A stretch of DNA of 64,000 bases from Microlunatus elymi (lineage in GTDB: Bacteria; Actinomycetota; Actinomycetes; Propionibacteriales; Propionibacteriaceae), in the NCBI RefSeq assembly GCF_007362775.1, contig NZ_CP041692.1:3038001-3102000 (forward strand). The letters run 5' to 3'. The notes under the pieces were generated by a model. It made no database searches and was not told the DNA's origin. It worked only from the letters and a program-made list of their open reading frames with translations. The position numbers and the translations under genes were made by a program. Within the stretch, counting starts at the first letter, position 1, and each line of letters begins with the position of its first letter. Positions 16,955 to 22,038 of the stretch are shown one piece after another.

Positions 16955-18234
16955 CCGTCGAACCGTTCCGGCCACGCCACCTCGTGGGCCCGGGAGGAGA
17001 TCGACGCCGCGACCAGCTCGGCCACCGCGTCGACCCCCATCCGCACTCGACGACCGGAGCGCGGATCGTCGATCGCGAGTTGATCTTGATCGATCTCGGT
17101 CTGGCCGATCACGCCGATCAAGGCGTCCCGGCGGACTCGGCTGGCCCGAATCCGCCGGCCGAGGCTGCCGTCGACGTCGATTCTCACCCGGATCCCGCGC
17201 CGACGAAGGCGTTCGGCGACCCCGCGTACTTGGTCATCACTGCCGAGATGGACCGGTAGCAGGACGATCTGCACCGGTGCGAGCCACAGCGGCAACCGCC
17301 CGTCGTGCAACTCGAGCAGGAAGGCGACCATCCGTTCCATCGCACCCAGCACACCACGATGGATCATGATCACCGGCTGACGGGTCCGGTCCGCGGCGAC
17401 GTAGGCCAGGCCGAAACGTTCGGGCTGGTTGAAGTCGAGCTGGACGGTGGCCAGGCTCTCCTCGTGCCCGCGGGTGTCGCTGACCTGGACGTCGATCTTC
17501 GGGCCGTAGAAGGCCGCTTCGCCGACAGCTTCGTGGATCTCCAACTCGGACTGCTCGACCGCGCCGGCCGCCAGCGCGGCTCGCAGTTGATCTTCCGCGT
17601 GCCGCCACTGTTGATCACTGCCCAGATACCCGTCACCGGCGTCGCGGCGAGACAGCCGCAGGTAGTTGATCTTGATCCCGAGGACGTCGAAAGCGTGCAG
17701 AATTCCGTTCAGGGCAAGGGAGACCTCGTCGGCGACCTGATCGGATCGGCAGAACACGTGGGTGTCGTCAAGATTGATCTGCCGGACCCGGCTGAGCCCG
17801 GACAGCACACCGGAACGCTCCGCCCGGAACATCGGCGCCAGCTCGTTGTAGCGCACCGGTAGATCGCGGTAGCTGTGTTGCTCCGCCGCGTAGATCAGCG
17901 CATGGTGCGGGCAGTTGGCCGGTCGCAGTACGAGTTGATCACCATCGGCCTGGTCACCACCGACATCCAACGGCGGAAACATGTCCTCGCTGAACTTCGC
18001 CCAATGACCGGATCGTTCGTAGAGCTCCCGCTTGGCCAGCACCGGCGAGTAAACCTCCTGACATCCGGTCCGGACGGCCAGTTCACGGGCGAACTGTTCG
18101 AGTTCGTGCCGGATCACCGCTCCGGCCGGTCGCCACAACGGCAGCCCGGAGCCGATCTGCGGATCGGTGGCGAAAATCTCCATCTGTCGACCGATCACCC
18201 GGTGATCGGACGGTGACAACTCTTCTGCGTTCAT
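16930..18234 (-). CDS. Short threonyl-tRNA synthetase lacking TGS and editing domains
   Basis: A 434-residue class II synthetase. It contains only the ThrRS catalytic core and C-terminal anticodon-binding domain; canonical ThrRS has about 640-690 residues with N-terminal TGS and editing domains. The three zinc ligands are conserved: Cys in RPANCPHH, His in DDTHVFC and His in VIMIHRGVLG. So aminoacylation is plausible but editing of Ser-tRNA(Thr) would be absent. The ATG at 18234 has GGAG seven bases upstream. It is preceded by a leader peptide with three Thr codons and a strong terminator, implying regulation by charged tRNA(Thr). It may be a stress or antibiotic-tolerant second ThrRS, as known for secondary copies in other bacteria; that is inference. 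Confidence 0.9.
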   Translation of the reverse strand: MNAEELSPSDHRVIGRQMEIFATDPQIGSGLPLWRPAGAVIRHELEQFARELAVRTGCQEVYSPVLAKRELYERSGHWAKFSEDMFPPLDVGGDQADGDQLVLRPANCPHHALIYAAEQHSYRDLPVRYNELAPMFRAERSGVLSGLSRVRQINLDDTHVFCRSDQVADEVSLALNGILHAFDVLGIKINYLRLSRRDAGDGYLGSDQQWRHAEDQLRAALAAGAVEQSELEIHEAVGEAAFYGPKIDVQVSDTRGHEESLATVQLDFNQPERFGLAYVAADRTRQPVIMIHRGVLGAMERMVAFLLELHDGRLPLWLAPVQIVLLPVHLGSDDQVRGVAERLRRRGIRVRIDVDGSLGRRIRASRVRRDALIGVIGQTEIDQDQLAIDDPRSGRRVRMGVDAVAELVAASISSRAHEVAWPERFDGQDLAPTG

Positions 18235-18274
18235 GATCAATCTCCTCGGTAGCCGAAGTCCACCCGGAGACAGC

Positions 18275-18304
18275 AAAAGCCCCGGAGTGTGGACTCCGGG
18301 GCTT
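18275..18304 (-). terminator. Intrinsic terminator/attenuator before the ThrRS gene
   Basis: On the minus strand a perfect 12-bp stem (arms 18304-18293 and 18288-18277, 4-nt loop) is followed by a T-run corresponding to AAAA at 18275-18278. It ends about 40 nt before the ThrRS ATG and lies after the leader peptide stop, as expected for an attenuator. Confidence 0.85.
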
Positions 18305-18316
18305 GGTGGCTGCAGA

Positions 18317-18382
18317 TCAGGACAGGCAGCAGGACACGACACCGGAGCGAACCGGCGTCGTCGTGCTGAGCTGACCTGACAT
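18317..18382 (-). CDS. Threonine-containing leader peptide of the ThrRS gene
   Basis: A 21-codon ORF reads MSGQLSTTTPVRSGVVSCCL followed by a final S, with three consecutive ACG Thr codons (18364-18356). A TTGCGG-17-TAACGT promoter ends seven bases before the ATG, so it is probably leaderless. The second and third Thr codons plus CCGG form the 5' arm of hairpin 18361-18336 (10 bp with one G-U). Its loop and 3' arm contain CTCCGG, which can also pair with CCGGAG in the 5' arm of the downstream terminator. This is the arrangement of a classical ribosome-stalling attenuator. Not translated product evidence; prediction from sequence only. Confidence 0.65.
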   Translation of the reverse strand: MSGQLSTTTPVRSGVVSCCLS

Positions 18383-18389
18383 GCCTCGT

Positions 18390-18418
18390 ACGTTAGGCGC
18401 CGCCGGCCGAGACCGCAA
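18390..18418 (-). promoter_or_regulatory. Promoter of the ThrRS leader
   Basis: On the minus strand TTGCGG (18418-18413) and TAACGT (18395-18390) are separated by 17 bp. The -10 lies seven bases before the leader ATG at 18382, giving a predicted transcript that begins at or next to that ATG. Confidence 0.6.
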
Positions 18419-18440
18419 CCCGATTGGGTGACAAGAACCC

Positions 18441-21065
18441 TCACCGCAGTCGGCGCAAGACCGGAACCGTCAACAAGCCGGAACTCAGCCCGTCGGCCGC
18501 CTTGGCCAGGTCCTGCATCGCGAACCGCCGGCCGTAGTTGTGCTGTCCGGCGCTGACGGCTCGGCCGATCGCGGTGTCGACTGCGACGGCGTTGGCCGCG
18601 GTGTTGCTGACCTGCAAGGTGATGCTGTTGCTGCCGGTACGAAGTTGATCACCGATCTCGATCCGGTAGGGCGGTGCCCACAGCGTCCCGCAGTGCTGAT
18701 CGTTGACGGTCACCTGCACGATCTCGCCGACCGGCGTCGCGGCGGCGACCCGGTAGGAGTTGCCCCGGATGCCGTCCTGGGCAGAGGATCCGGCATCGGT
18801 CGGGCTTACCGGTCCGAAGTCCAAGATCATCCTCGATCCCTCGGCGAGCCAGTCCCGATCAAGATCAACGGTGGTTCGGTAGGTGGCCGTGCCGGAGAAG
18901 GCGGTGCGGGCCGGATCGTCCTCCCAGCGATGCGGCAGGTCGATCGGGGTAGGGGATTCGGCGCCGAACTGCACCGTCCAGTTGTGGTTGAGTTCCGACC
19001 CTTCGACAGGCTGAGGGCCCTGGGGTTGCGTGATCGGCCCTTCGACAGACTCAGAGCTCGGGGCTGCCGTGGAGTCATCGTGCAGGACCAGGACTGTGGC
19101 CTGGTAGGGCTCCAGCTCCAGGCCGACCGTGCCGCCGAAGGAGGAGCCGGAGTCGCGGACCGTCGCGGCGTCCGGATCCCACAGTTCGAAGGCCGAGCGG
19201 GTCACCCGCGGGGATGCCGACAGGCGCCGGCGATACGGGCCGGTGTTGATCACCAGGTAGACGTCCTGGTCACCGACCCGTCGGTGCACGGTGCCGACCT
19301 CGCCGTCGGCATCGGCGAGCCGCAGGTCGGGCGCGACCACCTCGTCCAGCGCAGCGGCCAGGTCCTCGGCCGACACCGTGCGTGCTCCCTGGACAGGGCT
19401 GCCGTCGATGCTGAAGATCACACCGCCGGCGAGTTCGTATTTCTCCAACCAGGCTTGGGTTTCCGGGCGCAGATTCGTCACCGCAGGCAAGATCAACACC
19501 GGTCGGTCGGCGGGATCGACGGCGGTCAGCGTTTCGTCGTCGACCAGGTCATAGTCCCAGCCGTTTTCCCGGATGGTGGCCGGGATCCGACGGTCTATGT
19601 GGGCCGCCGCGTGGTGCCACAGATCGAGGTTGCCGCCGACCTCACGGCCCAGTCCCGGGTACAGGTCGTCACACGGCACGAAGATCAACACGTCCGCGAT
19701 CGGCCGGCCCTGGCGCATCAACCAGCACAGCCGTTGCAGATACCGGGCCAGTTCCGGCATCGCCGGCCACCACGGATTGCGATCGTCGAGCGCGCCGGCG
19801 GCGTAGAAATACCAGCCCAACCCGTCCGGATCGCGATCGGATCCCGAGGGCGAGTACGGCCAGCCGTGCCCGATGAACTGGTTAATGCCGGACAGCAGAT
19901 GCTCGTGCGCCTCGCCTTTCAGATCGAGCGCGGTCGCCCGGAAGGACGGCGAATGCACCCAGGTCCAGGTCTCCGACGACACCACCGCCAACCCGTAGAG
20001 GTGGCCGGCCGAGGTTGCCCACCGTCCTTGGGTGATCTTCTTCCAGCCCCAGCCCTCACCCTCGTACAGGTCGGCGAAGCGGTAGCTGCTGATCTTGGCC
20101 GGCGGGGTGCCGTAGCCCTGGATCCGGAACGGCACGCCGTGACCTGCGGCCCAGTCGCGGAAGACCGTGACGAAGTTCTCCTCGTACAACTCCGTCAGGG
20201 TACGGAAGTAGTCGATCCGTAGCCGAGCGGAGCCTTCCTCGTCGATGATCAACTGATGGAGCCGGGGGAGCAGCGGGTAGCCGCGCCGCGCCGCGAACTC
20301 GGTGATCAACTCAGGGGTCCAGTTGGCCGCATACACCTCGAGGCTGTCGCAGAACACCGAACCGACCAGCTCCGCTCCGACAGCCCGCAACAGCGGTTCG
20401 GCAACGTGCTCGATATGGCTCCGGGCCGCAGCCGCGGAGAAATGATCAAGGACCGGACCGTCGGCGCCGGCGGCGGCTCGCTTGACCAGCTGCCCGGTCG
20501 GCCGGGAAACCGCCAGCAGCAACTGCCGCGGCCCGCTGCCCGCCGGGATGTGCAGCAGGCCGTCGCTGATCTCCAGAGGCTGGTAGTCGACCGGACGTTC
20601 CAATCCCAGGCCCACGTAGCCGGCGACGATCTGCTCACCGGGCCAGGCCGACGCGACGGGAATGTCCAACCCAGCCGTGGAGAGTTCGCGGCGTTCCCAA
20701 TCCAGCTTGTGGGCTGCCCGCTCGGTGTCGATGTGCGGGCCGCCGAAGGACCAGCCGCTGCCCAACGTCAGGTCGAAACGCAAACCGAGATCGCGGGCCT
20801 GCTCGGCGGCGTAGCGAAGATGCCCGAGCACCTCGGCCGACATCATCTCCGGACTGTGTTCGACCAGCGGATAGACGAAGGACACCTCGACGCCGCCGAG
20901 ACCGGCGGCGGCCATCACCCGGAGTTCACGGTCGAGTTCGGCTCGCTGCACGGCCGGCCCGAACCACCACCAGCGCATCATCGGCCTGCTGTCAGGTGGC
21001 GGCGTGAGGAAGCCCGCCCGCAGATCGGCGAGCGAGGCGGGTGCTGCGGTCGGACCTGCAGTCAT
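18441..21065 (-). CDS. GH106-like glycoside hydrolase (alpha-L-rhamnosidase-like)
   Basis: An 874-residue soluble protein. The N-terminal barrel opens with RPMMRWWWFGPAV and DLTLGSGWSFGGPHID, characteristic of GH106-type enzymes acting on rhamnosylated or plant glycans; the C-terminus is a beta-sandwich with a jelly-roll feel (ILDFGPVSPTD, VQVTVNDQHCGTLWAPPYRI). No signal peptide is present, so the substrate is probably imported. Two copies of the PEPVEGP-type repeat are translated at roughly residues 680-700 in a linker between the barrel and the sandwich. A palindrome TTGAATGGTTTCAA lies 21 bases upstream of the ATG. Substrate is inferred from family only. Confidence 0.8.
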   Translation of the reverse strand: MTAGPTAAPASLADLRAGFLTPPPDSRPMMRWWWFGPAVQRAELDRELRVMAAAGLGGVEVSFVYPLVEHSPEMMSAEVLGHLRYAAEQARDLGLRFDLTLGSGWSFGGPHIDTERAAHKLDWERRELSTAGLDIPVASAWPGEQIVAGYVGLGLERPVDYQPLEISDGLLHIPAGSGPRQLLLAVSRPTGQLVKRAAAGADGPVLDHFSAAAARSHIEHVAEPLLRAVGAELVGSVFCDSLEVYAANWTPELITEFAARRGYPLLPRLHQLIIDEEGSARLRIDYFRTLTELYEENFVTVFRDWAAGHGVPFRIQGYGTPPAKISSYRFADLYEGEGWGWKKITQGRWATSAGHLYGLAVVSSETWTWVHSPSFRATALDLKGEAHEHLLSGINQFIGHGWPYSPSGSDRDPDGLGWYFYAAGALDDRNPWWPAMPELARYLQRLCWLMRQGRPIADVLIFVPCDDLYPGLGREVGGNLDLWHHAAAHIDRRIPATIRENGWDYDLVDDETLTAVDPADRPVLILPAVTNLRPETQAWLEKYELAGGVIFSIDGSPVQGARTVSAEDLAAALDEVVAPDLRLADADGEVGTVHRRVGDQDVYLVINTGPYRRRLSASPRVTRSAFELWDPDAATVRDSGSSFGGTVGLELEPYQATVLVLHDDSTAAPSSESVEGPITQPQGPQPVEGSELNHNWTVQFGAESPTPIDLPHRWEDDPARTAFSGTATYRTTVDLDRDWLAEGSRMILDFGPVSPTDAGSSAQDGIRGNSYRVAAATPVGEIVQVTVNDQHCGTLWAPPYRIEIGDQLRTGSNSITLQVSNTAANAVAVDTAIGRAVSAGQHNYGRRFAMQDLAKAADGLSSGLLTVPVLRRLR
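18997..19060 (-). repeat. Two palindromic repeat copies inside the glycosidase gene
   Basis: Copies at 18997-19020 and 19037-19060 (core CCCTTCGACAGGCTGAGGGC and a degenerate second copy) are read on the minus strand as PQPVEGS and ESVEGP, the same translated phase as the copies in dnaE2. Confidence 0.78.
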
Positions 21066-21204: not shown

Positions 21205-22038
21205 ATGACGCCATCCGACCACGAGCTGATCTTCGACGAATCGACAGGGATCAGCTGGTCGGCTTTTGCGGTGGATCTGGAGAGTGACCAGACGCTGTTC
21301 AGCCACAGCCCGGAGCGGGAGCTGGACACCGCCAGCATCGGCAAGATCTTCTTGCTGCACACGCTTCTGGACCAGGTCGATCGGGGTGAGCGGACGTTGG
21401 AGGAGCGGGTCCGGCGGCGTCCGTCGGAGTGGATGAACGACTCCGGTCTGTGGTACCGGCTGCAGGCCGACGAGTTGAGCCTGTACGACGTTGCCGCGCT
21501 GATCGGCGCGGTCAGCGACAACGCCGCGACCAACACCCTCTGCCGGGTGATCGGGCTGGATGTCGTCCACGAGCACACCGCGGCCCTGGGCTATCGGCAC
21601 TCGGGGCTGGACGACGTCGTCCGCTGGCCCCGGCCACCGGGCGCACCGAGCCGCCTCTCCCACGGGACCGCCGCCGAGCTGACGACGTTCGTCGCCGCCT
21701 TGGCGCGCAACGAGACCCTGTCGGCCGCATCCTGCGACACGTTCAAACGTTGGCTCGGAGCCGGCATGGATCTGTCCATGGTTGCCTCCGCGTTCGGCCT
21801 GGATCCGTTGGCCCATGACGAATTCGACCGCGGCATCTGGTTGTGGAACAAGACCGGCACGATCAGTCGCGGACGTGCCGACATCGGCGTCGTGATGTCG
21901 CCGGAGCGTCGGATCGCCTATGCGGTCCTGGCCAACTGGCCGCGCGGCGACGACCGCCGCGATCAGGTCCTGGAACAGATGCGCTCGGCCGGCAACATGA
22001 TCAAGGCACACGTGCAGGACGACGACCTCCGGGCTTGA
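21205..22038 (+). CDS. Class A beta-lactamase-fold serine hydrolase
   Basis: A 277-residue protein with the penicillin-binding fold motifs: STYK-type SIGK (Ser44, Lys47), SDN at 104-106 and KTG at 216-218. The class A Glu166-type ExxLN motif is not evident, so true beta-lactam hydrolysis is uncertain. No signal peptide is seen, unlike secreted lactamases. Actinobacteria carry many cytoplasmic or undefined members of this family. A second related gene is at 57803. Confidence 0.82.
   Translation: MTPSDHELIFDESTGISWSAFAVDLESDQTLFSHSPERELDTASIGKIFLLHTLLDQVDRGERTLEERVRRRPSEWMNDSGLWYRLQADELSLYDVAALIGAVSDNAATNTLCRVIGLDVVHEHTAALGYRHSGLDDVVRWPRPPGAPSRLSHGTAAELTTFVAALARNETLSAASCDTFKRWLGAGMDLSMVASAFGLDPLAHDEFDRGIWLWNKTGTISRGRADIGVVMSPERRIAYAVLANWPRGDDRRDQVLEQMRSAGNMIKAHVQDDDLRA

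Follow-up and report, generated by a model that had tools for sequence, protein, structure and literature searches.

Our analyses indicate that a short threonyl-tRNA synthetase (ThrRS) gene, thrS, located on the minus strand of the 64,000-nucleotide stretch of Microlunatus elymi DNA analysed here (referred to below as the window), is very probably controlled by a classical ribosome-mediated transcription attenuator, in which slow reading of threonine codons in a short upstream open reading frame (uORF) would turn on a spare ThrRS that lacks an editing domain. The predicted leader is widespread in actinomycetes, and the genes behind it contain very little ACG, the codon that dominates its threonine run. 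The elements of this leader, their conservation in relatives and their significance are discussed below.

Elements of the Leader and the Gene that It Precedes

An earlier note on this DNA had described a promoter (TTGCGG-17-TAACGT), a leaderless 21-codon ORF with three consecutive ACG codons, a 10-bp hairpin, a competing CTCCGG/CCGGAG pairing and a perfect 12-bp terminator before thrS. All of these elements were located on the minus strand of the window, and their coordinates were verified (Table 1). Three features described below go beyond the earlier note, viz. the pairings of a segment downstream of the terminator, the occurrence of the leader before full-length thrS and the scarcity of ACG in the genes behind it. 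The three ACG codons are situated at the 5' arm of hairpin 1:2, and segment 2 is able to pair with either segment 1 or segment 3, its sequence GCTCCGG being complementary to CCGGAGT (18293-18299) in the 5' arm of the terminator. Two characteristics of attenuators, viz. a run of cognate codons in a short upstream (here predicted) ORF and an intrinsic terminator with a U run (12-bp stem, TTTT), are both found in the window; the U run is missing in some relatives. The -10 element is located 7 nt upstream of the leader ATG, so that this ATG or its immediate vicinity is the most likely transcription start, with ribosomes loading on a leaderless ORF. The predicted folding energy of the 166-nt leader is -85.6 kcal/mol, compared with a mean of -60.8 kcal/mol for 200 dinucleotide shuffles (z -5.5), none of which folded as well (0/200). 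A search of the window identified no Rfam family at its gathering score, T-box included, and the T-box was also absent among the five weak Rfam matches at 18000-18700, which bears out the earlier claim that the gene has no T-box.

Table 1. Positions of thrS and of the predicted leader elements in the window.
Feature	Position	Strand	Remarks
-35-like TTGCGG	18413-18418	minus	read from sequence
Spacer, 17 nt	between -35 TTGCGG and -10 TAACGT	minus	
-10 TAACGT	18390-18395	minus	7 nt upstream of uORF ATG
Leader ORF MSGQLSTTTPVRSGVVSCCLS	18317-18382	minus	leaderless (predicted); 21 codons + stop
Sensor codons ACG ACG ACG, then CCG	18353-18364	minus	
Segment 1, protector hairpin 5' arm	18352-18361	minus	CGCCGG core nearly invariant in relatives
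Protector hairpin 3' arm	18336-18345	minus	10-bp stem with segment 1
Segment 2 GCTCCGG, antiterminator 5' partner	18342-18348	minus	2:3 permutation test
Segment 3, terminator 5' arm	18293-18304	minus	3:4 permutation test, both sets
Segment 3b CGGAGTCCAC, terminator 5' arm end and loop	18289-18298	minus	3b:5 pairing
Segment 4, terminator 3' arm	18277-18288	minus	12-bp stem
TTTT, terminator U run	18275-18278	minus	
Segment 5 GTGGACTTCG, alternative 3b partner	18254-18263	minus	overlaps anti-Shine-Dalgarno stretch
Segment 6 with Shine-Dalgarno GAGGAG	18242-18249	minus	its CCGAGG can pair with CTTCGG of segment 5
thrS, short ThrRS, 434 aa	16930-18234	minus	start 18234; PF00587 and PF03129

The protein encoded by thrS matches TIGR00418 with 407 bits over model positions 165-563, and its Pfam domains consist of a class II catalytic core and an anticodon-binding domain only; the TGS and editing domains of canonical bacterial ThrRS were not found in it by Pfam, and the match to TIGR00418 begins at position 165. 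The hallmarks of a ThrRS (viz. class II core, anticodon domain, and the zinc ligands Cys/His/His) are all present, and the zinc ligand residues are retained in 70/70 aligned short-ThrRS rows. The genome of M. elymi also encodes a full-length ThrRS, which has no strong match to the leader model R1 described below. One tRNAThr gene each was found for the anticodons CGU, UGU, and GGU by a scan that covered 37 of the 45 tRNA matches (the other eight being matches of 82-91 nt), and because there is one gene per anticodon, a particular sensitivity of ACG would not follow from the number of genes alone. The upstream gene (18441-21065, minus strand), which ends 22 nt before the -35 element, shows an alpha-L-rhamnosidase-type resemblance, its product scoring below the equivalog cut-off and exceeding the one set for a jelly-roll domain, and a gene at 21205-22038 (plus strand) encodes a remote relative of class A beta-lactamases, with all matches far below the curated cut-offs.

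Conservation of the Threonine Run and the Promoter

Comparisons were carried out for 72 loci that best match the short ThrRS, comprising 22 of 30 loci from 57 related genomes and 50 of 80 loci from a further search; the remaining loci of both sets, which encode full-length or distant ThrRS, were set aside. An N-terminal anchor was obtained for 70 of the 72 loci and, three pairs being identical between the sources, these represent 67 distinct leaders. All of the anchored short-ThrRS loci (70/70) are preceded by a short ORF containing a Thr run, which reads TTTP in nearly every case, and inspection of the two unanchored loci revealed TTPP in L066 and TTTP in L075. Among the distinct leader regions, a short ORF with three consecutive Thr codons is found on 65/67 sense strands vs. 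3/67 antisense strands, and a stricter scan that also requires a -10 element, and often picks a start codon further upstream, identified 42 on the sense and 0 on the antisense strand. The sequence TAnnnT occurs 6-8 nt upstream of the uORF start in 66/67 leaders, compared with 1 of 162 control ATGs in the same leader regions (within -16 to -4), and the uORF is therefore predicted to be leaderless in this group. The -35 element is weakly conserved, with TTG at a spacing of 16-19 nt in 14/67 leaders. In L011 (G012) / L071 (Microlunatus endophyticus), an in-frame TAG splits the short thrS match in two and the leader is intact.

In the 65 leaders whose run comprises three Thr codons, ACG occupies 181 of the 195 positions. 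The run itself varies, as only two Thr are present in L066, L074, and L076, and the middle Thr is replaced by Arg or Ser in two leaders preceding full-length thrS genes (L320 and L324). The run is followed by a Pro codon in 64/65 leaders. L012, the only one to deviate (CTA), differs in hairpin 1 as well, which points to retention of the Pro codon for the sake of the RNA arm. Synonymous-only change of the Thr codons was considered as a sign of translation and dropped, as the leaders were located by means of ACN codons and L320 and L324 replace a Thr; because of this mode of location, the lack of non-Thr codons in the 65 three-Thr leaders provides no test. A loss of the Thr codons or of the pairing arms in relatives, which the earlier note had named as evidence against its own reading, was looked for and not found: the Thr run, arm 1, segment 2, and the terminator arms are all conserved, and they support the competing-hairpin attenuation that it had envisaged.

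Competing Pairings and the Modelled Switch

The fit between the segments was assessed by a permutation test, in which duplex scores within loci are compared with those obtained after swapping partners across loci (67 leaders, 33 clusters), and again in a replication set (62 loci tried, 57 parsed, and 49 left after removing close kin of the first set, giving 10 new clusters); residual relatedness among loci is only partly controlled in these tests. The compensatory fit of the arms, for which the earlier note had suggested a search, is seen in both sets for 3:4 (z 14.8, the strongest element in the 33-cluster test, and z 5.3 in replication), while for 2:3 it is seen in the 33 clusters (z 3.9) and is not significant in the replication (z 0.7), a small set in which the control combination 2:4 reached z 1.9. 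The pairing 1:2 is nearly invariant across loci (z 1.2), and 10 other combinations of segments did not rise above permutation in the 33 clusters. The mutually exclusive pairings 1:2, 2:3, and 3:4 expected of an attenuator are thus available in these leaders, with the replication result for 2:3 as given.

When the leaders were folded with and without a modelled ribosome at the Thr codons, as the earlier note had advised, a ribosome on the first Thr codon raised the number of 2:3 pairs expected prior to the synthesis of segment 4 (means of 67 leaders, 0.5 bp without and 8.8 bp with the ribosome), and the increase was seen in 33/33 clusters. In the folding model, the free full-length leader keeps 3:4, with 10.7 expected pairs on average. 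Because the free leader keeps 3:4 and 3:4 is longer than 2:3, antitermination would have to be kinetic. The folding results thus lend good in silico support to the predicted switch in transcription. According to the proposed mechanism, when enough Thr-tRNA is available the ribosome would run on, segment 2 would be masked or paired with segment 1, 3:4 would form, and RNA polymerase would stop before thrS. When the ACG-decoding tRNA is undercharged, the ribosome would instead wait on the Thr codons and cover segment 1, segment 2 would pair with segment 3 before segment 4 is made, and thrS would be transcribed.

Past the terminator, segment 5 may pair with 3b or with the Shine-Dalgarno (SD) region. 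The pairing 3b:5 comprises 10 pairs in the window (CGGAGTCCAC/GTGGACTTCG). Both 3b:5 (z 6.1) and 5:6 (z 3.4, 4/5000) exceed permutations in the 33 clusters, which contain the same loci in which these pairings were first spotted by eye, and both do so in the 10 new clusters (z 3.3, 5/5000, and z 2.9, 20/5000, respectively). Predicted SD accessibility shows no difference between the free and the modelled ON states (higher in 17/33 clusters, p 0.93); hence, a simple SD-sequestration switch is not claimed, although the pairings fit within loci. We read the pairing of segment 5 with 3b or the SD region as a putative second control on the full-length mRNA, which may act in either direction; what the comparisons support for this layer behind the terminator is a conserved predicted pairing.

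These downstream pairings also give reason to consider that the leader acts mainly on translation. In this view, 3:4 would in many lineages not function as a terminator, and the thrS ribosome-binding site would be gated by segments 3b, 5, and 6 according to the position of the leader ribosome. The better fit of 3b:5 and 5:6 within than across loci agrees with such a role, as do the leaders in which no U run follows the hairpin (e.g., L014, L016, L020, and L022) and the hairpin of the Streptomyces lividans leader thrL, which likewise has no U run in the accessible part of its description (PMC8079986). However, SD accessibility is predicted to be the same in the two states, a U run is present in the window and many relatives, and the 3:4 hairpin gives the strongest permutation signal, and we consider a mainly translational role unlikely, if well worth keeping in view.

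Distribution of the Leader and Its Occurrence before Full-length thrS

The covariance model R1, built from 56 of the 67 leaders, has one strong match in the M. elymi genome (E 1.3e-14), the 16 others having E values of 0.05-0.9. In a class sample of 394 genomes, M. elymi included, 61 short-ThrRS genes were identified (E <= 1e-95), 59 of which have a strong R1 match (E <= 1.5e-6) located 17-264 nt upstream of the protein match; the two genes without one sit at contig ends. The strong R1 matches total 64, five of which are not among these 59. In G140, a strong match precedes a short ThrRS outside the E <= 1e-95 list, and in G423, G288, and G400 it precedes a full-length ThrRS, which is the sole ThrRS found in each genome. 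The fifth is L198 (G281:C18:1-214), a complete leader close to the end of a contig, behind which the start of an unrelated 27-codon open stretch takes the place of thrS; the sole ThrRS identified in G281 is a full-length one. Of the weak R1 matches (39 rows, E 1.8e-6 to 1e-3), 13 were inspected and rejected as leaders, most of these 13 being ordinary 3' terminators. Gene-end terminators of actinomycetes (L188, L190, L191, L194, and L195) can share an attenuator core of the CCCCGGAGC..GCTCCGGGG type.

Within the family f20, an R1 match at E <= 1e-6 is present in 78/150 genomes. Of these 78 genomes, 20 were picked for middling R1 scores, as likely full-length cases, and examined together with G423, G288, and G400. 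A leader followed by a full-length thrS was found in 20 of these 23; two others are the cases with a replaced middle Thr, in which the leader was missed by the pattern, and one is cut. A -10 element is present at the chosen start codon in 12 of the 20 leaders. In a tree of 83 rows, all 32 short ThrRS form one clade (100/100), and the three leader-bearing full-length rows are found inside the full-length clade at two places; these three rows may have a single origin.

Avoidance of ACG in the Genes behind the Leader

The thrS gene of the window has 8 Thr codons, 0 of which are ACG. In the 67 short thrS genes ACG makes up 18 of 560 Thr codons, vs. 1496 of 4142 in flanking ORFs (chosen by a G+C heuristic), and its share is higher in the flanking ORFs in 67/67 loci. 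No comparable loss relative to the flanking ORFs is seen in short thrS for the codons ending in G that specify Pro, Ala, Val, Gly, Leu, Ser, and Arg. In 21 genomes that have both genes, ACG amounts to 1/116 in short thrS and averages 22.8% in the catalytic regions of the leaderless full-length genes, its share being higher in the latter in 20/21 genomes with one tie (p 9e-5). Leaderless full-length catalytic regions contain 140/556 ACG overall, with 85/370 in 23 genomes with a short paralog (G281 left out) and 55/186 in 13 genomes for which no short paralog was found in the 57-genome search. The 20 leader-bearing full-length thrS genes have 12/481 ACG in the whole gene and 3/249 in the catalytic part, compared with 30/180 in the catalytic part of 14 leaderless full-length thrS genes of f20 (Fisher p 1.5e-9); 14 short thrS genes of f20 have 2/134, and the two cases with a replaced Thr have 1/26 in the catalytic part. 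With so little ACG in its sequence, the controlled gene could probably be translated even under the conditions that would induce it.

The Thr content of the short ThrRS is also low (1.4%, vs. 4.1% in the paralog region, or about a third), and L013, L016, and L084 (Kribbella and two related genomes) encode short ThrRS with a single Thr in 405-412 residues. A general loss of Thr was nevertheless rejected as proof of adaptation, since Lys drops as much as Thr and Phe, Asn, and Tyr are low too; for this reason we lean on the codon-specific result. Frames that we take to be threonine biosynthesis genes are moderately low in ACG (hom 5/31, thrB 1/12, and thrC-like 1/27).

The avoidance of ACG might be the plain codon bias of highly expressed genes rather than an adaptation to the starvation that is sensed. 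The EF-Tu gene of M. elymi has 2/34 ACG and a frame read as EF-G has 3/48. ACG is thus rare in highly expressed genes as well, and ordinary codon bias may account for some of its avoidance here. As an account of the whole, however, we regard it as distinctly improbable: EF-Tu is also low in GCG, GTG, GGG, and CGG relative to background, which short thrS, compared with flanking ORFs, is not, and the leaderless full-length thrS genes keep 17-30% ACG. With regard to the proposed attenuator, we see the arguments as evenly balanced on a more specific reading, in which the switch would sense one class of tRNAThr (ACG) and not threonine in general, the synthetase would have changed in codon usage so as to escape that shortage (with nearly no ACG, about one third of its paralog's Thr in the short family and as few as 1 Thr in ~410 residues), and the coupled alternatives 3b:5 and 5:SD would add a control on the full-length mRNA.

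Relationship to Known Attenuators and to Other Controls

The leader resembles the E. coli thr, trp, and his attenuators in having cognate codons in a leader ORF and the 1:2 / 2:3 / 3:4 logic. Unlike these classical attenuators, it controls a synthetase rather than a biosynthetic operon, its uORF is leaderless, and it has extra downstream pairings. Its sensor codon is ACG, vs. ACC in E. coli thr, and the theory of selective charging explains which codon an attenuator uses as its sensor (PMC1183508, accessible part). Synthetase genes are also under attenuation in Streptomyces (viz. trpS and leuS), and the survey of actinobacteria reporting these attenuators states, in the part available, that no conserved RNA structure was found upstream of threonine operons (PMC1262725).

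The closest known case is thrL of S. lividans TK24, located upstream of thrS SLIV_19410, which has been called an attenuator (PMC8079986, including Table 4; available portions). Like the present leader, it encodes a leaderless peptide (MKRVRPFLETTPGFVPAR) before a threonine-tRNA ligase, and we infer that SLIV_19410 is a short ThrRS paralog; comparison with the published peptide identified related peptides in the genomes studied here (e.g., MKRAQPFLTTTPDSVPAR in G308). In the same portions, thrL has two Thr, vs. three in most of the leaders studied here, and one hairpin is described; alternative pairings, relatives, the downstream segment, and codon bias are not mentioned there (PMC8079986). 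In the literature searched, which was mainly open-access, there is no account of this leader family or of its ACG avoidance. The kind of attenuation is known, with one prior report of thrL; novelty appears to lie in the conservation of the family and in the scarcity of the sensor codon in its target.

A second ThrRS expressed on demand is also known from B. subtilis, where thrZ is under T-box control, and this speaks for the possibility that the present second ThrRS is controlled by a T-box or by a repressor protein (e.g., Zur) and not by the leader ribosome. The same applies to Anabaena thrS2, likewise a second ThrRS expressed on demand, which is under Zur; its product T2 retains a degenerate editing domain, whereas the short ThrRS described here has none (PMC4787780, accessible part). 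Such control is highly improbable for the present gene in view of the empty Rfam search of the window and the conserved Thr-run uORF and competing arms. Hardly credible is the view that the hairpin is an ordinary intergenic terminator and the uORF incidental, which is suggested by the CCCCGGAGC..GCTCCGGGG-type core of the 3' terminators that make up most of the weak R1 matches (13 inspected) but appears already contradicted by conservation, viz. by the strand bias and constancy of the Thr-run uORF, the placement of its -10 element, and the avoidance of ACG in the genes behind the leader.

Significance of the Proposed Attenuator Leader

The ribosome-mediated attenuator proposed here makes the converse of the codon theory testable, as the sensor codon is present in the leader and all but purged from the gene that it controls. 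This purge spans two enzyme architectures, while the leaderless paralogs keep ACG. Borrelidin, an inhibitor of ThrRS, is produced by actinomycetes, according to published abstracts. The leader is a likely conserved control for the second ThrRS of actinomycetes, and it would provide a compact model of attenuation by a leaderless uORF.
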